Shown: positions 810 through 20,839 of the stretch, in pieces | Position numbering within the stretch: position 1 is the stretch's first letter | Layout of the letters: every line of letters begins with the position of its first letter | Virus record (IMG/VR): IMGVR_UViG_3300010430_000105 | Coordinates: 1-45,207 of that record | Reading direction: 5' to 3' (one strand) | From: a virus | DNA: 45,207 nt | Notes under the pieces: generated by a model | Database searches by the model: none | What the model saw: only the letters and a program-made list of their open reading frames with translations | Told to the model about the DNA's origin: nothing | Program-made: the position numbers and the translations under genes

Positions 810-1286
810 TTAGTCCTCCGCACCAGCATTTAAATCAATATCAAGCGTTTCAGTTTTAACACCACCATTTGCGCGATGGTTAACATTTAAGCCGCTATAA
901 TCAGCGAATGAGCCGCCATGCTTATTAACTAAGCTTTCTAGGTCTTCTTTACCCATTGCATTAACAGCAACTTCTGGTAAGCCTAAGTCAAGCGCATTAA
1001 CAGCTTCGCGCAAGCCTTTTAGCTCGCCTTCTTTGTTAGCAGCAAGTTCATCTTTAAGCGGTTTAACTGCAGCGTTAACAGTTTCAGCGACAATTGCAGA
1101 GATTTCTTCGGCGTTCATAGCCTTGTCTTTTTTCTCTTTCTTCTTGTCGTCTTCGTCTTTGTCAGCATCAGCGTCTTTTTTCTTGCCGCTCATGTACTCG
1201 TTGTACGCTGCGAATAGCGCGTCATCATCGAGATTGTTAACCTCAATGTTGGCAGCGTTTAAAGCAGCAATCATTTTATCACGCAT
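810..1286 (-). CDS. Possible nested scaffold product (internal start)
   Basis: An in-frame ATG at codon 340 of the protease/scaffold gene is preceded at 8 bases by GAGG. The product would be 158 residues: a helical N-terminus (MRDKMIAALNAANIEVNN), a very charged Asp/Lys linker, then a long coiled helix. That is the composition of phage scaffold proteins, which are often made from an internal start in the protease gene. The Shine-Dalgarno match is seen. Actual use of the start is inferred. Confidence 0.4.
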   Translation of the reverse strand: MRDKMIAALNAANIEVNNLDDDALFAAYNEYMSGKKKDADADKDEDDKKKEKKDKAMNAEEISAIVAETVNAAVKPLKDELAANKEGELKGLREAVNALDLGLPEVAVNAMGKEDLESLVNKHGGSFADYSGLNVNHRANGGVKTETLDIDLNAGAED

Positions 1287-2303
1287 AATGCGATCCTCGT
1301 TTGTGTTTAAGTCTTGGTTATTATAACCAGATTCTTCTTGACTATCAAAATCACCGTGATTAGCAAGCCATTTTTTGAATTTAGTGAACAGGCCAGCTTC
1401 GTCATTAACAACGTCGCCAGCGGAATTAATAACCATATCAACGTCAAACACTTCCGTTTCATTGCCGTTAAAGCGCATCACTGTTGTTTCACCACCTGCA
1501 GGAGCTTCATTAAGCAATAGAGCTAAATGGTCGTAATCTTGGTTAACAGCAGTTTTATCGTATGACTCGCCTTTGCTGTTGGTCCCGCTTAGCTCGTTAT
1601 TACTAAAAGTTAAGCCGGTGCTAACGCCGATGTTTTCTCTTGCGTTTAAGGCTTCAATGTATGATTGGCCATCATTTTGCGCGGCAAGCATAGACTTTTT
1701 AATATCTGCGTCTGCGTACCAAATGCCATCAGAGTTATAAACGTCGGTAATGTTTCCGCCGCTGTAAAAGTCTTGCATACCTACGCCATTTTTAGCGCTG
1801 ATATTAAAACCTTGTGATTCTGGATGCGCTAACGTTAAAGGCTGACCAATCATTGACGGCATACCCTTAGCGTTCTCATCTGCTGAATAGAGAATACCGT
1901 TCATCACAGCATTGTCTGCTGTAATTGGAATACCTTTAATTTTGTAATGGGTATCAGTCTCGCTCATTTGAGTCTTACTGATATTTGTATAAAGGCGAAT
2001 TTTGTTCATACCGTCCTCGCTATTAGTTGATGTACCTTTTGCCGGAATACAATCCCAGTATATCAAACTAAAGGTGTTAGGGTTAAATCCACGCGGAGCT
2101 AAGCCAGATGCACGAGAGCAGTAATTCTTTTTAGCCTTTGGGTTGTCTTGGCGTGTTGGCATACTTGCATCACCAAAGTGTAACGATTTTCCATCAGACT
2201 GGCGAACAGCTTTAAATGTTTTACCCTTGGCTGTTGGCTTTTCTATTTTAACTTTGCCAATGCCATAACCAAGCGTATAAGTTGAACCAATTTTGAAGCG
2301 CAT
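810..2303 (-). CDS. Capsid maturation protease fused to scaffold, with an extra N-terminal domain
   Basis: A 497-residue three-part protein. Residues 1-98 form a small cysteine-containing module (LHFGDASMPTRQDNPKAKKN, then YCSRASG) that resembles a stand-alone phage domain known from cyanophage and vibriophage proteins. Residues 99 to about 320 match DUF2213-type capsid proteases (GMPSMIGQPLTLAHP, then ENIGVSTG). Residues 340-497 are acidic and lysine-rich with long helices, typical of a scaffold. Two internal ATG codons have their own Shine-Dalgarno sites: GAGG before codon 99 (2009) and GAGG before codon 340 (1286). Separate protease and scaffold products are therefore possible, as in lambda C/Nu3. 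The first ATG directly follows a hairpin and a T tract. The gene lies upstream of decoration and capsid genes, as expected. Confidence 0.75.
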   Translation of the reverse strand: MRFKIGSTYTLGYGIGKVKIEKPTAKGKTFKAVRQSDGKSLHFGDASMPTRQDNPKAKKNYCSRASGLAPRGFNPNTFSLIYWDCIPAKGTSTNSEDGMNKIRLYTNISKTQMSETDTHYKIKGIPITADNAVMNGILYSADENAKGMPSMIGQPLTLAHPESQGFNISAKNGVGMQDFYSGGNITDVYNSDGIWYADADIKKSMLAAQNDGQSYIEALNARENIGVSTGLTFSNNELSGTNSKGESYDKTAVNQDYDHLALLLNEAPAGGETTVMRFNGNETEVFDVDMVINSAGDVVNDEAGLFTKFKKWLANHGDFDSQEESGYNNQDLNTNEDRIMRDKMIAALNAANIEVNNLDDDALFAAYNEYMSGKKKDADADKDEDDKKKEKKDKAMNAEEISAIVAETVNAAVKPLKDELAANKEGELKGLREAVNALDLGLPEVAVNAMGKEDLESLVNKHGGSFADYSGLNVNHRANGGVKTETLDIDLNAGAED

Positions 2304-2308
2304 AAAAA

Positions 2309-2330
2309 AGCCCTAAAGTTGTTTAGGGCT
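2309..2330 (-). promoter_or_regulatory. Hairpin plus T tract abutting the protease start codon
   Basis: On the minus strand AGCCCTAAA, loop CAAC, TTTAGGGCT forms a perfect 9-bp stem followed by six T residues (sharing one with the stem) and then immediately the ATG at 2303. It has the form of an intrinsic terminator. The only Shine-Dalgarno candidate (AGGG, 7 bases from the ATG) lies in its 3' arm, so it would also block translation. It follows the small-gene operon 2376-2844, whose transcripts it should stop. Confidence 0.75.
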
Positions 2331-2359
2331 ATTGTAGTTTATTTATTGTTCGGTGTTAA
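2331..2359 (-). promoter_or_regulatory. Putative late promoter of the protease-capsid operon
   Basis: TTAACA (2354-2359), a 17-base spacer and TACAAT (2331-2336) on the minus strand. The expected start of transcription (about 2324) falls inside the left arm of the following hairpin, so RNA made here would lack most of that arm. Confidence 0.5.
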
Positions 2360-6153: not shown

Positions 6154-6162
6154 ATTATAACA
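6154..6162 (-). promoter_or_regulatory. Late-type extended -10 promoter of the terminase operon
   Basis: TGTTATAAT on the minus strand, 32 bases before the small-subunit ATG. No consensus -35 is present; 17 bases upstream lies only TTTTAT from the T tract of the preceding terminator. The same TGnTATAAT form recurs at 17418, 18409, 32590, 35748 and 43397. Confidence 0.6.
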
Positions 6163-6182
6163 TTAAACTTTAGACAATAAAA

Positions 6183-6199
6183 AAGCCCATCAAGGGCTT
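6183..6199 (-). terminator. Intrinsic terminator
   Basis: On the minus strand AAGCCC, loop TTGAT, GGGCTT followed by a run of T. It ends the small-gene operon 8546-6205 just before the terminase promoter. Confidence 0.8.
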
Positions 6200-10858: not shown

Positions 10859-11608
10859 ATGATCGACGTTGAAGATTTAAAAGCCAAGGTAAACATTGTC
10901 GATATTATCGAGGAATTTGTACCGCTTAAAAAGTCTGGGAAAGATTACTTTGGTTGTTGTCCTTTCCATGGTGAAAAAACGCCGAGCTTTTCAGTTAACG
11001 AGCGTGACCAATATTATTACTGTTTTGGTTGCCATGCAAAAGGCTCTGTAATTGATTTTGTTATGGAATATAAAAGCGTTGATTTTCTTGAGGCGTGTAA
11101 ATACTTGGGTGCTGACATTCACGAAAGAGAAACAATGCGCGGTGAAGTTATTAAAAAAAGACCTACCTACGCGCGCATGCCATTTGATGATTCATTGAGT
11201 GACAACCAGATAAGTGAGTTTTTATCTAAATGCGACACGTTGACGCATGGTGAAGAAACGATATTTACCTATGGATGCGACCAAGTGTTGATTCTAACTG
11301 ACATAAACAGTAAGCCGGTTAACTTAGCTTTATGGGATGGCATTAAACACCGTTATTACAATAAGCATTTTGTTTTTGGTGCTTGCGCAATATTTGGTGA
11401 GTTATCCGGTGAAGTTGTTATGTGTGAAAGCTGGAAAGACGCAAACCGATTAAGTCGTCTTGAGGGTAAAAACACAATCTACTTTTTTGAGCCGTTAAAC
11501 CTGTTTTACATCTGGCAAGAGTTAAAGCGCAAAGGGTGTGAAATAAAAATAATTTGTAAAAGCGATGAAGCAAAGTTTCACGCTGATAATTTTGGATTAA
11601 CACAATAA
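10859..11608 (+). CDS. CHC2 zinc-finger primase with degenerate Toprim region
   Basis: A 249-residue DnaG-type primase. The N-terminal zinc finger is complete: CCPFHGEKTPSF and YYCFGCHAKGS give Cys34, His37, Cys55 and Cys58, then a helix that packs on it (IDFVMEYKSVDFLEA). The protein is short compared with DnaG. The C-terminal half begins a Toprim-like strand (EVVMCESWKDANRL) with a glutamate, but the place where a DxD motif is expected reads ICKSDEAKFHADNFG, so the catalytic acids are not in canonical form. Polymerisation may depend on the adjacent DUF3987 protein. The genes abut. Confidence 0.75.
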   Translation: MIDVEDLKAKVNIVDIIEEFVPLKKSGKDYFGCCPFHGEKTPSFSVNERDQYYYCFGCHAKGSVIDFVMEYKSVDFLEACKYLGADIHERETMRGEVIKKRPTYARMPFDDSLSDNQISEFLSKCDTLTHGEETIFTYGCDQVLILTDINSKPVNLALWDGIKHRYYNKHFVFGACAIFGELSGEVVMCESWKDANRLSRLEGKNTIYFFEPLNLFYIWQELKRKGCEIKIICKSDEAKFHADNFGLTQ

Positions 11609-11612
11609 ATAA

Positions 11613-11642
11613 CTTTACATGGTAAAGTTAAATGCATATTAT
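11613..11642 (+). promoter_or_regulatory. Early-type promoter with operator before the methyltransferase
   Basis: TTTACA (11614-11619), 17-base spacer, TATTAT (11637-11642). The operator CTTTACATGGTAAAG (11613-11627) overlaps the -35 box. The leader TTAATTGGAGAG precedes the ATG. Confidence 0.75.
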
Positions 11643-11669
11643 TAACTGTGAATTAATTGGAGAGTAAAA

Positions 11670-12917
11670 ATGAACAAAAATAATTTAACAGTGCTAAGTT
11701 TATTCGACGGTATGTCATGCGGTCGAATCACATTAGATAAAACGGGTATAACTCCTAAAGCATACTACGCAAGCGAGTTAGATAAATTTGCAATCAAAGA
11801 AACTCAAGCGAATTGGCCTAACACCATTCAGTTAGGAGATGTTACAAAATGGCGTGAATGGGATATTGATTGGTCGAGTATTGATTTATTAATAGGCGGC
11901 TCACCATGTCAAGGTTTTAGTTTTGCTGGCCTACAAGCGGGAACCAAAGCTAATTTAAACGGCGTTGATTTCATCATAGAAACGCGCGAACAATATCTAC
12001 AAGCAAAATCTGACGGAGCGACTTTTTACAGTCAATCACATTTGTTTTGGGAGTACGTTTTGTGTCTTGATTACGTTAAAGAGAAAAACCCAAATATAAA
12101 ATTCATGCTTGAAAACGTAAAAATGAAAAAATGCTTTATGGATATGATCACTGATGCAATGGGCGTTGAACCGGTATTTATTAATTCTGCATTGGTTAGC
12201 GCTCAAAATAGACAGCGTTATTACTGGTGTAATTGGGAGGTTACACAGCCAGAGGATAGAAAGTTAGTTCTTTCGGATATTATTGAAAGCGGTGTTGTAG
12301 ATAGAAGTAAAGCGCATTGCTTGGACGCTAACTATTTCAAAGGCGGAAACTTAAAAAGCTATTTTGAGAAAAATAGGCGTCAACTTGTTTTTAATAGCGC
12401 GGCTATTGTTGGCAGAAAAATAAATCCAGAAACAGGAAAGCGCGAAGATTACAATGCGGACTTACCAACATTGCAAACTTTAGAGGTGCAAAACCACGGA
12501 AAAGCACGATGCTTATCAACTGTTAGCAAAGATTGTTTAGTTAGCAGCTTACCACCTGGTAGGTATCAAGTTAACGATAATAAGCGTGTAAAAGCTATAA
12601 CGGAAAACGAGCACGGATATAGACCACACCGAGGGGATGATAGGAAAACAGGTATTAGTGAGCTAGGCCGAATTTACAAAGCCGGCGCCAAAGTTTACAC
12701 GTTAACAACATCACACCAGCCAAAGCTTGCTTTAAATGATGATATTAATAATTTGCAATACAGAAAACTAACAGTTGTTGAATGTTGCCGCTTGCAAGGC
12801 GTACCAGATAACTACTTTAAAGTATCAAGCAACACTCAAGCATACAAAATGCTAGGTAACGGCTGGCAGTGCGATACTATCGAGCATATTTTTAATTGTT
12901 TATTTGAGGTGTGTTGA
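11670..12917 (+). CDS. DNA cytosine-5 methyltransferase, no partner nuclease
   Basis: A 415-residue C5-methyltransferase. Motif I is VLSLFDGMSCGRITL (8-22). Motif IV with the catalytic cysteine is LLIGGSPCQGFSF (about 73-85). Motif VI is FMLENV (about 146). Motif VIII is QNRQRYYW (about 178). Motif X is YKMLGNGWQCD (about 390). The region 210-370 holds the target recognition domain. No restriction endonuclease gene is nearby, so it is an orphan enzyme that probably protects phage DNA from host restriction. It has its own operator-controlled promoter and is followed 1 base later by the helicase gene. Confidence 0.9.
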   Translation: MNKNNLTVLSLFDGMSCGRITLDKTGITPKAYYASELDKFAIKETQANWPNTIQLGDVTKWREWDIDWSSIDLLIGGSPCQGFSFAGLQAGTKANLNGVDFIIETREQYLQAKSDGATFYSQSHLFWEYVLCLDYVKEKNPNIKFMLENVKMKKCFMDMITDAMGVEPVFINSALVSAQNRQRYYWCNWEVTQPEDRKLVLSDIIESGVVDRSKAHCLDANYFKGGNLKSYFEKNRRQLVFNSAAIVGRKINPETGKREDYNADLPTLQTLEVQNHGKARCLSTVSKDCLVSSLPPGRYQVNDNKRVKAITENEHGYRPHRGDDRKTGISELGRIYKAGAKVYTLTTSHQPKLALNDDINNLQYRKLTVVECCRLQGVPDNYFKVSSNTQAYKMLGNGWQCDTIEHIFNCLFEVC

Positions 12918-12918
12918 T

Positions 12919-14706
12919 ATGTACAAACTAAGAGACTATCAACAAAAAGCGCATGACTCGACTGTTGAACATTGCCGCGATTGCCACAAAAGCCAAACTT
13001 TTGACCCCGCTTTTGTTGCTGCATCGGTTGGTGCTGGTAAAACACTGTCAATTGCATTTATGGCTAAACACGTATCAGAAAAAGGTGGTCGTGTTTTAGT
13101 GTTAGCCCGTCAAGGTGAATTGATAAAACAAAACGCAGAAGATGCACAGGCGATTGGTTTGCGTGTATCAATTTTTAGCGCAAGCCTAAACCAAAAATCA
13201 ACATACTATCCGATTGTTTTTGGCACCGAGGGAACGGTGGGTCGCTCACTAACTACTGTGTTTAAGAATGCCAAGTTTGATGTAATTTTAATCGATGAGT
13301 GTCATATGGTCCCGTGGCAAGACGCTATAAGCCAGGAGCCAGAAACGCAGTACGGTAAAATATTAAATCACTTTAAAGCCATCAACCCTAAAGTTATGGT
13401 TGTCGGTTACACTGGCTCACCTTATCGTGGTAGTGAGTCCATACTTGGCCCGTATTGGAAAAAGCAATTAAGTGACATTTCAACCTATGAATTAATCAAC
13501 AAAGGTTTTTTAGTTCCTCCGTTGTTTGGCTTTGGTGATGAGGCGCATCAATATGAAAGCATGGCAAAGTTTGACATTAAAGGCGGCGAAGGTGCGAATG
13601 ATTTCACTAGTAAAGAGATGGCCGCAATGGGTCGCGCTGTTTGCAAGGAGCAGACTAAAACGCAAGAAATTATGGCGGAAGTTATCGAGCGCACCAAAAA
13701 CCGCCATGGTGTATTAATCACTTGCGCTAGTAGAAAGCATTGTGAACAAGTTGCGGAATGCTTACCTGATGGTAGTTGGGGAATTGTAACAGACAGTACA
13801 AGCACTAAAGAGCGTATGCGTATTTTAGACGGTGCCAAAGATGGCTCAATAAAATACGTGATGCAAATTGGCTGTTTAACGACTGGTGTAAATGTTCCGC
13901 TTTGGGACACTTGTGTAATCCTTCGCAAGATTGGCAGCTTAACGTTAATTATACAGCTTATTGGCCGTGTACTTAGAACACTAAAGGAACACCAAGTTGA
14001 AGCTGGCCTGATAAAAAATGACGCGCTTGTTTTGGATTACACCGACACGCTAGAGCAAATGGGTGATATTTACTGCGACCCGCTTTTAGAGCAAGCAACG
14101 TTAAGCCGTAAAAATCCAAGCGATGTAACTCAAGAATGCCCATTATGCCAACAAGTAAACACAGAATTTGCAGTGCGTTGTATTGGTCATGATGAGTCTA
14201 GTGAAGATGGCCGTTGTGAACATTACTTTATGTTTAATGAATGCAAAAACTGCGGTGCACATAACGCACCAACTGCCAAAACATGCCGTAAGTGTGAAGC
14301 TGTATTGATTGACCCTAACGCCGCGCTAACAGGCAAAGCTTACAGTGATGCAGACTATAAAGAAGTTGAACGCATGGAATTAACCGAGTCAACCGGCGGA
14401 AAACTTAGAGTTGCTTACTACCTAAAATCAATGATTAGCAAAATGGGTATTGAAGAACATGAGGTTGCTATTGAATGGTTGGACCCGTTTTTTAATACGC
14501 AATTCCATAGGGCAAAGTGGCGTCAATTTGTTGAAGATCATGTTTCGAGTAATCAATGGAAACGCGCGCTAAGGTCTTGCACAAGTGTAGCTGATATTAT
14601 TCAAAACCAATCAGCAATAGAAGTTCCCGAAGCGATAACGCACAGAATTAACGATAAAGGATTTAGTGTAATTAACCGCAAGAAATTTAAACGGGTCGAG
14701 CAATAA
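12919..14706 (+). CDS. SF2 DEAD/DEAH-type helicase with C-terminal zinc fingers
   Basis: A 595-residue superfamily 2 helicase. It shows a Q-like region YQQKAHDST, Walker A ASVGAGKTLS (about 35-43), motif II LIDECHM (about 124), motif III-like GYTGSPYRG, motif V LTTGVNVP, and motif VI QLIGRVLRTL (about 345). After the core come two Cys pairs (CPLCQQ; CKNCG and CRKCE, about 405-465), likely zinc knuckles for DNA binding, and a helical tail. The ATG at 12919 has GAGGTG upstream; the longer reading from a TTG is unlikely. Such proteins act in phage recombination and fork remodelling, like UvsW or RadD. Confidence 0.85.
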   Translation: MYKLRDYQQKAHDSTVEHCRDCHKSQTFDPAFVAASVGAGKTLSIAFMAKHVSEKGGRVLVLARQGELIKQNAEDAQAIGLRVSIFSASLNQKSTYYPIVFGTEGTVGRSLTTVFKNAKFDVILIDECHMVPWQDAISQEPETQYGKILNHFKAINPKVMVVGYTGSPYRGSESILGPYWKKQLSDISTYELINKGFLVPPLFGFGDEAHQYESMAKFDIKGGEGANDFTSKEMAAMGRAVCKEQTKTQEIMAEVIERTKNRHGVLITCASRKHCEQVAECLPDGSWGIVTDSTSTKERMRILDGAKDGSIKYVMQIGCLTTGVNVPLWDTCVILRKIGSLTLIIQLIGRVLRTLKEHQVEAGLIKNDALVLDYTDTLEQMGDIYCDPLLEQATLSRKNPSDVTQECPLCQQVNTEFAVRCIGHDESSEDGRCEHYFMFNECKNCGAHNAPTAKTCRKCEAVLIDPNAALTGKAYSDADYKEVERMELTESTGGKLRVAYYLKSMISKMGIEEHEVAIEWLDPFFNTQFHRAKWRQFVEDHVSSNQWKRALRSCTSVADIIQNQSAIEVPEAITHRINDKGFSVINRKKFKRVEQ

Positions 14707-17997: not shown

Positions 17998-18384
17998 ATG
18001 ATACCAACACATAAAACAAAGCTTAGCGCTGGAGCTGATTTATCTTCAAGTGAATCTGTTTTGATTGATAAGGGTGAAACTGTTTTAGTTGGCACAGGTT
18101 TTAAGCTTGAGAATTACCATGAGTTACCAAATATGGTTTATATGTTATTTATACGCTCCAGCTTGTCATTTAAACGTGGTTTAATTTTAACTAATTCGGT
18201 AGGCGTGATTGATGCTGATTACAAAGATGAAGTTAAGGTGATGCTTACAAATATCAGCAACAAACCGGTTAAGATTGATAAAGGTGAGCGTATAGCGCAA
18301 ATTGTCCCTATGCGTTATATGGACGGCTTTTTTGAAGTTGAAAATAATGAACGAAAAGGCGGCTTTGGTTCAACTGATAACTAG
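17998..18384 (+). CDS. dut: dUTP pyrophosphatase
   Basis: A 128-residue trimeric dUTPase that hydrolyses dUTP to dUMP and keeps uracil out of phage DNA. All five motifs are seen: SAGADLSS (10-17), IRSSLSFKRG (52-61), GVIDADYKDEV (69-79) with the catalytic Asp, GERIAQIV (97-104), and RKGGFGSTD (119-127). It is slightly shorter than cellular enzymes at the N-terminus. GGAGGGG lies just before the ATG. It ends the early-type operon that begins at 17597. Confidence 0.92.
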   Translation: MIPTHKTKLSAGADLSSSESVLIDKGETVLVGTGFKLENYHELPNMVYMLFIRSSLSFKRGLILTNSVGVIDADYKDEVKVMLTNISNKPVKIDKGERIAQIVPMRYMDGFFEVENNERKGGFGSTDN

Positions 18385-18408
18385 CCATTTAACCGAAACA
18401 AATTAAAA

Positions 18409-18417
18409 TGCTATACT
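18409..18417 (+). promoter_or_regulatory. Late-type extended -10 promoter of the portal operon
   Basis: TGCTATACT, no clear -35. The expected transcription start (about 18424) lies inside the left arm of the hairpin at 18419-18438. Confidence 0.55.
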
Positions 18418-18418
18418 A

Positions 18419-18444
18419 GGCTCATTAATAAATGGGTCTTTTTT
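18419..18444 (+). promoter_or_regulatory. Hairpin plus T tract abutting the portal start codon
   Basis: GGCTCATT, loop AATA, AATGGGTC (8 pairs in RNA, two of them G-U), then six T and the ATG at 18445. The GGG that would serve as Shine-Dalgarno is in the 3' arm. The same plan is seen at 2309-2330 before the protease gene. Confidence 0.6.
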
Positions 18445-19881
18445 ATGTCAAATAGAAAGCACAATAGCAAACAGAAAAAGCGACAGTTAGCCGCTAATAA
18501 TGATAGACGCATGGCGCAAAGTCGAGCTAACTACGCTTTACACTTTAGCGCACCTTCAAATATCGGTGACACACTTCGCGATGATGCGGCGCAGTATGGC
18601 TATCCATGCCAACTAAGCTTTATGAATTATTACAACGCCTATAGTCGCGGCGGTTTTTTTAATGCTTTGGTTGATATTGTGCCAGAACGCTGTTTCAATC
18701 AGATGCCGCTTATTGTTGATGGTGATGAAAACGACAGCACTAAAAAAGACAATACAGCATTTGAAGTTGAACTAAAAAAACTTAATAAAAAATTCAACTT
18801 ACTCCGTTTGTTTAAAGAAGCGGAAAAAATGAAGGACGTCGGCAGTTATTCCGCTATTGTGCCAGTCTTTAAAGAGTCAGGAAACGATCCTAAGCTATCG
18901 GATGAGCCAAGCAAAGCGCAAGGCGGGGTTGGCTCAGTTGCTGCTATTAATGTTTATTATGAGCCTGAGTGTGAGGCGTCAACTGATGTTGTTATGGATT
19001 ATTTTGATCCAGATTACAATAAGCCCGTTTATTATAAAATTAACAACTCTGTACTTTCTGACCGTCAAACGACAAACGCTGAGCAAATAGAAATTAATCG
19101 CAAGCGAGTATTTATTCTAACTAACGCGACTGGCTCGACTATTTACGGAAAGCCAGCACTTGAATCACCTTTTGATGCTTTATTTGACCAGCGAAAAATA
19201 CGAGGCGCATCTGCTGAAGGTTATCGCAAGAACGCAATGCAAAAGTATGTGTTAAACGCTAATGATAACGCGGTTGCTGGTAAAGCGTTTAATGATCCAA
19301 CCACGGCGGCTAAGTTAGATAAAAACATTGATGACTTTAACGACAACTTTAACCAGGCGTTAAAAGTTGCGGGTATGGACGTCAACATGTTGCAAGGCAC
19401 AATCGAAGACCCAACAGGTGCTAGCACTGTTGCACTGCAAGAGGCTTGCGCTTCTCGTCGCGTTCCTGTAACCGAGTTAATAGGCTTTATGACAGGTGAG
19501 CGCTCATCAAGTGAGAATAGCTCAGCATTTAGCAAACGCCTAAAGGGTGAGCAAGAAAACGAATATGGCCCTAGAATTTGCGCTTTCCTTTACTGGCTTG
19601 TTGATTTAGGCATTTTACCGGCGCCAAGCAAAGAAATAACTGTTATATGGCCTGATATTGCTGAACCTACTTTAAGCGAAAAGCTAGAAATGGCTGATAA
19701 AATGACAATGCAAAATGAGCGCGCATTTAAATCACGCCAAGAAGCTCCGTGGACTGTTGAGGAAATTCGAGAGGTTGCCGGTTTTGAAACTGATAAACCT
19801 AACTCTGAATACGAGCAAGAAGATGATAAATCAGACGAGACTTTAGGCGATGCAAATATTAGCGATCAAAGCACCATCTAA
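18445..19881 (+). CDS. Portal protein (DUF1073-type)
   Basis: A 478-residue portal, the twelve-subunit ring through which DNA enters and leaves the head. It matches the DUF1073 portal family: FMNYYNAYSRGGFFNALVDI near residue 60, VPERCFNQMP, KMKDVGSYSAIVPV, then SPFDALFDQRKIRGASAEGY and the ERSSSENSSAFSKRLKGEQ loop near 355-373. The N-terminal 20 residues are basic and glutamine-rich. The C-terminus is acidic. It lies on the plus strand, opposite to terminase and capsid genes, which is unusual. Its start is fixed at the first ATG after the hairpin and T tract. Confidence 0.88.
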   Translation: MSNRKHNSKQKKRQLAANNDRRMAQSRANYALHFSAPSNIGDTLRDDAAQYGYPCQLSFMNYYNAYSRGGFFNALVDIVPERCFNQMPLIVDGDENDSTKKDNTAFEVELKKLNKKFNLLRLFKEAEKMKDVGSYSAIVPVFKESGNDPKLSDEPSKAQGGVGSVAAINVYYEPECEASTDVVMDYFDPDYNKPVYYKINNSVLSDRQTTNAEQIEINRKRVFILTNATGSTIYGKPALESPFDALFDQRKIRGASAEGYRKNAMQKYVLNANDNAVAGKAFNDPTTAAKLDKNIDDFNDNFNQALKVAGMDVNMLQGTIEDPTGASTVALQEACASRRVPVTELIGFMTGERSSSENSSAFSKRLKGEQENEYGPRICAFLYWLVDLGILPAPSKEITVIWPDIAEPTLSEKLEMADKMTMQNERAFKSRQEAPWTVEEIREVAGFETDKPNSEYEQEDDKSDETLGDANISDQSTI

Positions 19882-20839
19882 AGACAACCCGCTTATACCT
19901 AAAAAAGCATCTGATCCAGCGGGGCAAATGCCAACGGTTAAGCGGTTATTTTCTGATTTAAAGAAACGCTTTAATAAAATAAATAAGCGCATGGTTGAGC
20001 TGGTAAAAGAGCAAAGAAAATACCAAACTCGCATAACTACGAATAAAGCATACTATGAATATCAAATTGATGAACTTAGATACCAGTCAATCAATGAGTA
20101 TATTTTAAGAGTCTTGCGCGCTAACTTGCTCGAGTCATTTGATGGAACCAAGCCGCTCAACTGGTTTTATCAGTCATACCTTGAGCAATCATTTATTGAC
20201 GGTATAAACGACCAGGTTTACTCAGCTAAATCGATGGCCGACCCTGCAATTGTTGGTGAAGAAATCACTCAACAAATAATGGCGATCGATGAAGATTACA
20301 TATCACCACAACAGCAACAGCGTTTAGGTTTGGTTTATGCTCGAGTATTTGAAGAAATGGACGGCCTAACAAACTCAATGAAAGTCGACCTTGCCAATAC
20401 ATTAACTCGCGGTATGGCTGATGGTTTAGGTATCACAGAAATTAGTAAGAATATCCAAAAGCGCGTTCAGGTGGGCTTTAGTCGCGCTCAGCGTATCGCT
20501 AGAACTGAAATAATGCAATCGTATCGCACAGCAACAAGAAGCGAACAGAGAGACATTAACGCTAATATTTACGCTGATAGTGATTGGCATATGCAATTAT
20601 TGTGGTGGTCTGCATTAACATCGACAACGCGTAAAACTCACGCTGCAAAGCATGGTGGCATTTACGATAATCAAGAGGTTGATGATTTTTATAGTGAAGG
20701 TGCTAACGCGATAAACTGCTACTGCAATCAAGGGCCAGTGCTTGTAAATAAAAAAACAGGTGAAACGCCACAGCAAGATTTGATTGATAAAATGTTAAAA
20801 CAAAAACAAGTGTGGCGGGTAGGAATGAAAGGCGCTTAG
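19850..20839 (+). CDS. Minor head protein (Mu F / SPP1 gp7 family)
   Basis: A 329-residue head morphogenesis protein that is packaged with the portal. The family signature is in the C-terminal half: RAQRIARTEIMQSYRTA (about 217-233), STTRKTHAAKHG and EGANAINCYCNQGP near residue 295. The N-terminal part is helical and basic. The gene overlaps the portal gene by 32 bases, so the two are translated in step. A terminator that includes its stop codon follows. Confidence 0.85.
   Translation: MQILAIKAPSKDNPLIPKKASDPAGQMPTVKRLFSDLKKRFNKINKRMVELVKEQRKYQTRITTNKAYYEYQIDELRYQSINEYILRVLRANLLESFDGTKPLNWFYQSYLEQSFIDGINDQVYSAKSMADPAIVGEEITQQIMAIDEDYISPQQQQRLGLVYARVFEEMDGLTNSMKVDLANTLTRGMADGLGITEISKNIQKRVQVGFSRAQRIARTEIMQSYRTATRSEQRDINANIYADSDWHMQLLWWSALTSTTRKTHAAKHGGIYDNQEVDDFYSEGANAINCYCNQGPVLVNKKTGETPQQDLIDKMLKQKQVWRVGMKGA

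Follow-up and report, generated by a model that had tools for sequence, protein, structure and literature searches.

According to work attributed to Davis in 1985 and Beuzon in 1999, both cited in PMC2965389, the read-through RNA of Tn10/IS10 and IS200 is reportedly silenced by a 5' hairpin and/or a terminator. For the T4 genes e, soc, 49 and I-TevI, a helix in the long early RNA masks the ribosome binding site, while the RNA made from the late promoter, which comes without the 5' strand of this helix, is translated (PMC3014915). "Mobile attenuators" and premature terminators are located directly upstream of genes and block expression driven by outside transcription (PMC2965389). Here, we describe a phage element in which a promoter, a terminator and a start codon are joined.

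The window, that is, the whole stretch of DNA that was analysed, is a virus record of 45,207 bases. Its minus strand, from 2359 to 2301, reads TTAACACCGAACAATAAATAAAC-TACAAT-AGCCCTAAA-CAAC-TTTAGGGCT-TTTTT-ATG, an element of about 60 bases. It consists of the -35 hexamer TTAACA (2354–2359), a spacer of 17 nt, the -10 hexamer TACAAT (2331–2336) and, with no gap, a 9-bp hairpin of about -10 kcal/mol (2309–2330, with arms at 2330–2322 and 2317–2309), whose T tract (2304–2309, as read from the sequence) reaches the ATG (2301–2303). The order of parts given in the initial annotation, namely TACAAT, then the left arm of a 9-bp hairpin, then a T tract running into the ATG, is thus confirmed, and the start point that it placed at about 2324 coincides with the position 7 nt past the -10 hexamer, which lies within the left arm and is the start predicted from the -10 position. 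The right arm contains the SD-like core AGGG (2311–2314). A GC-rich stem with a T tract behind it gives the hairpin the form of an intrinsic terminator, termination itself being predicted; no Rfam leader or riboswitch family was matched within the window.

The gene opened by this ATG (810–2303, minus strand) encodes 497 aa, composed of an N-terminal domain of about 98 aa, with a weak match to DUF5754, and a DUF2213/phrog_760 protein, which is of the head-maturation-protease type according to the annotation of its relatives. The next gene is a head-decoration gene, followed, judging from position, by the major capsid gene, which is cut off at the window edge. Upstream, two small genes on the minus strand (2671–2844 and 2376–2555), for which no family match was obtained, would send read-through transcription into the protease gene. 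Further observations concern 2871–2914 and 11604–11673, two similar promoter regions of the window that share the palindrome TTTACATTGTAAA; its copy at 2887 has divergent operons on its two sides and could serve as an early promoter/operator.

A second copy spans 18389–18447 on the plus strand. The -35 TTAACC (18389–18394) is separated by 17 nt from the extended -10 TGC-TATACT (18409–18417), which is followed by the terminator hairpin AGGCTCATT-AATA-AATGGGTCT with its T tract TTTTT (18418–18444), which leads into the ATG of the portal gene (phrog_146; 18445–19881), with the MuF gene downstream (19850–20839). The stem sequence is unrelated to that of the first copy, and the geometry is the same in both, with 0 nt between -10 and stem, a stem of 9 bp, a loop of 4 nt and a distance of 27 nt between the -10 and the ATG. 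Both copies sit at the ATGs of real genes; the portal gene is preceded by a dUTPase gene (17998–18384), as the protease gene is by the two small genes. Promoter matches by themselves are at background level (12 found vs. 14.1 in shuffled sequences), and the promoter scan alone is uninformative. It is the combination of parts that exceeds the background, and the element in the window is not due to chance.

Based on this arrangement, the element is probably an insulated promoter, in which the terminator would halt RNA coming from upstream and a local start inside the left arm would escape it. RNA polymerase arriving from the upstream small genes would be stopped by the intrinsic terminator ahead of the head operon. 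At the promoter that adjoins the terminator, RNA would start about 6–7 nt into the left arm, so that it would lack the GC base of the stem, form no terminator and run through a leader of about 21 nt into the gene. With the start within the left arm, the terminator would therefore stop only read-through RNA. A second layer would act on read-through RNA that escaped termination: its SD would be paired in the hairpin, and the short RNA would expose it at least partly. Promoter activity, the exact start, the efficiency of termination and the late switching-on of the operons are what we infer from the arrangement.

Five isolated Pseudoalteromonas phages (H103, H40/1, TW1, C7 and XCL1123) were examined over their whole genomes, and in all five both the portal gene and the DUF2213-protease gene carry the element. 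With a strict descriptor, 11 matches were found in six related genomes, all of them at portal, protease or MuF genes. When only an ATG was demanded, regardless of gene length, there were 12 matches in the six real genomes vs. 0–1 in each of ten shuffled sets of all six. In phage C7, where an inserted DNA methylase gene stands between portal and MuF, a third element lies just past this insert, at the MuF (minor head) gene; no element was found at MuF in the other genomes of the six-genome set. This locus of C7 (37927–38720) may be regarded as a natural experiment, with the methylase insertion and an own copy of the element at MuF.

The copies agree closely in their promoters. Among the 22 non-redundant copies, all have a TANAAT-like -10 and a spacing of 0–1 nt between -10 and stem, and 21 have the G at -14 that marks a sigma70 extended -10 promoter. 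The lone exception, which counts against the insulated promoter, is the protease copy of the window, which has a better -35 (TTAACA) instead. Such promoters bear directly on the possibility that the hairpin is an attenuator, where RNA begun well upstream would fold into the complete hairpin and a late antiterminator would allow the polymerase to pass. Lambdoid phages do have terminators ahead of their structural genes, together with antitermination. However, an upstream start leaves unexplained both the adjoining -10 in 22/22 copies and the extended -10 G in 21/22, and we consider the attenuator quite improbable. A C-rich box resembling TAGCCCACC is also present at about -35 to -28 in the 22 copies; counted from the stem, it lies at about -29 to -22 and replaces a normal -35. 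Our guess is that it is a candidate site for a phage (late) activator. Searching for the box elsewhere in the six genomes gave, besides the known elements, mostly chance-like matches.

The fold of the hairpin is kept although the stem sequences differ between copies. Another possibility is that the inverted repeat acts as DNA, as an operator bound by a phage regulator, and not as a hairpin in RNA. In favour of this, the outer AGCC/GGCT bases are well conserved. On the other hand, loop length varies between 3 and 12 nt, the pairs further inside the stem differ in both arms, and the T tract lies without exception on the RNA 3' side, all of which makes an operator very unlikely.

More evidence comes from scans of IMG/VR. 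Pattern matches precede protease genes with differing N-termini. One scan used a pattern of terminator and ATG only, without any promoter, where an ATG counted as a gene start if its open frame had 50 aa or more. A promoter adjoins the stem in 14 of 28 cases at gene starts vs. 5 of 62 elsewhere (Fisher p=2e-5), and an extended -10 or a -10/-35 site lies 0–1 nt from the stem in 13/29 vs. 2/60, where the counts in these scans are not fully independent because many of the loci are related. The offsets from -10 to stem are 0 nt (seven cases) and 1 nt (six), with five others spread across 5–33 nt. In the reverse scan, with TATAAT fixed and the hairpin free, the -10 is followed immediately by a stem of 6 bp or longer in 23 of 82 cases (1.7 expected), and a -35 or TGn is far commoner with a stem than without (p=9e-5). 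A scrambled hexamer gave stems in 6/62 cases vs. 22/76 non-redundant ones with TATAAT (p=0.006). No weight was given to an arm-permutation test, which is partly circular because the arms had been chosen as stems.

These offsets should be weighed against plain economy, that is, a chance overlap of an upstream terminator with the next promoter in a compact genome, with no regulatory role. Separate parts do occur. At the head of the TerS-TerL operon of the window (minus strand, 6154–6199), a terminator (6199–6183) and an extended -10 TGT-TATAAT (6162–6154) are unfused, so fusion is not required, and in three Vibrio phages inspected by eye a terminator comes first and a promoter-like stretch and SD, distinct from it, come next, before the gene for the N-terminal domain, which is there a separate gene preceding the portal. 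Compaction alone, however, does not predict a spacing fixed at 0–1 nt, and almost never 2–33 nt, at gene starts, nor a fusion that recurs with unrelated stems and unrelated genes. Economy is therefore unlikely, and a start point set inside the left arm of the terminator is strongly supported by the comparative evidence.

The genes that follow the element include those for portals (phrog_145, phrog_146), head morphogenesis proteins (phrog_241, phrog_1114), head proteins (phrog_1912, phrog_939), a connector, a tail terminator, a large terminase and an endolysin, but DNA ligase, dNMP kinase, RNase H and P2-like integrases are among them as well. The copies are located where a structural gene follows non-structural genes. 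To obtain an unbiased denominator, relatives of the protease were collected by protein alone; the full-length protein matched nothing in IMG/VR as a query, while an alignment-based search did find relatives. The element is at the protease start in 20 of these loci, and a further locus has it 0.3 kb upstream. Where it is present, the upstream genes tested are non-structural (ATPase-like, glucosyltransferase) or without a family match. It is absent from all nine tested protease loci with MuF (phrog_758) upstream, as well as from the other loci of this group and from L260 and L266. Consequently, the element is one of head genes that no longer stand behind another head gene. Acinetobacter phage AbP2 has one element at a head protein (20943, minus strand) and a second at 14050 (minus strand), at what is by position the baseplate hub gene. 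Both lie within the structural region and not at an early/late border, which counts against the insulated promoter as we explain it. The scan of the genome collection also gave one Acinetobacter locus.

Two further groups were noted. In P2-like prophages, the integrase genes (L023, L038, L039 and similar loci) have TTGACC-17-TTAAAT adjoining a terminator that runs into the ATG; the integrase was matched in about 1,086 of the 5,426 E. coli genomes, a count that refers to the integrase and not to the element. At L140, L146, L169, L184 and their relatives, strong promoters adjoin terminators and the ATG is not a gene start, which may be a version of the valve that lacks the SD layer.

The initial annotation had proposed a switch in which early read-through RNA is blocked and local RNA is open. 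Its core, the start inside the left arm, has the strong comparative support given above, the late timing is presumed, and the hiding of the SD stands as a secondary feature. RNA folding was predicted for read-through RNA and for a short RNA starting 7 nt past the -10. In read-through RNA, the predicted P(unpaired) of the SD core is 0.00–0.01 in 28/28 copies. In the short RNA the core is predicted to be partly free (0.23–0.67) in 24 of the 28, and AGGG of the window protease gene changes from 0.00 to 0.26. The predicted cores are modest, and in four portal copies the core, a poor GTGG, remains paired in the short RNA, which makes this layer less certain. SD hiding is, according to the folding predictions, a secondary and weaker layer.

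AGGG was also said to be the sole SD. This holds for the ATG at 2303, for which it is the only SD-like core, and not for the whole gene, since an unhidden in-frame start, Met99, has its ATG at 2009–2007 and a good SD, GAGG, at 2018–2015 (minus strand), about where the homologues begin. The alignment of the phage homologues with the 497-aa protein extends mostly from residue ~99 onward. From Met99, the protease could thus be translated without use of the hidden SD, and this start would bypass SD hiding at this gene. The fusion of N-terminal domain and protease is kept in two IMG/VR relatives, L003 (5001–6551) and L004 (5001–6401), where an SD-like sequence again accompanies the second start. 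Possibly, such a fusion with a Met99 start gives two protein forms from one gene.

A wider reading is that a start inside a terminator fused to the start codon is a general phage element that evolved repeatedly, serving as a one-way valve at structural operons of tailed phages and at integrase genes of some temperate phages, and driven in the Pseudoalteromonas group by an activator at the C-rich box (-35 to -28). We hold this tentatively, as somewhat less than an even chance. If the insulated promoter is true, head operons could lie right behind early or cargo genes and yet not be expressed too soon, at the cost of about 60 bases and without a protein devoted to the task. It would provide a simple signature for annotating the structural-operon promoters of unstudied phages, show how a head operon splits or takes an insertion, as in C7, yet keeps its regulation, and offer a ready insulated promoter for engineering.

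A literature search on phage promoter/terminator overlap, with many subscription journals outside its scope, did not find the design described. By analogy, the principle is already known from T4 genes e, soc, 49 and I-TevI and from the Tn10 and IS200 leaders. As in the T4 gene e leader, the SD is sequestered in the long RNA, here by prediction in 28/28 copies. The promoter position fits an RNA without the 5' strand of the helix, start and timing being presumed. T4 combines its own late promoter, TATAAATA, with translational control, whereas the promoter here is of the sigma70/extended -10 type; the copies do not match TATAAATA and have a TANAAT-like -10 with TGn or a -35 instead. Unlike in T4, the hairpin is also an intrinsic terminator, and the element heads head-gene operons. 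The protection against outside promoters would be shared with the Tn10/IS10 and IS200 leaders; those belong to transposase genes of mobile elements and are not known to have, as here, a -10 that adjoins an intrinsic terminator with a T tract reaching the ATG. For mobile attenuators, the available part of the description mentions no promoter starting inside the stem (PMC2965389), and such a start is the proposed design here. Two features seem to be new, namely that promoter, intrinsic terminator, SD and start codon are fused with a fixed spacing, and that this fusion recurs at the head genes of phages.
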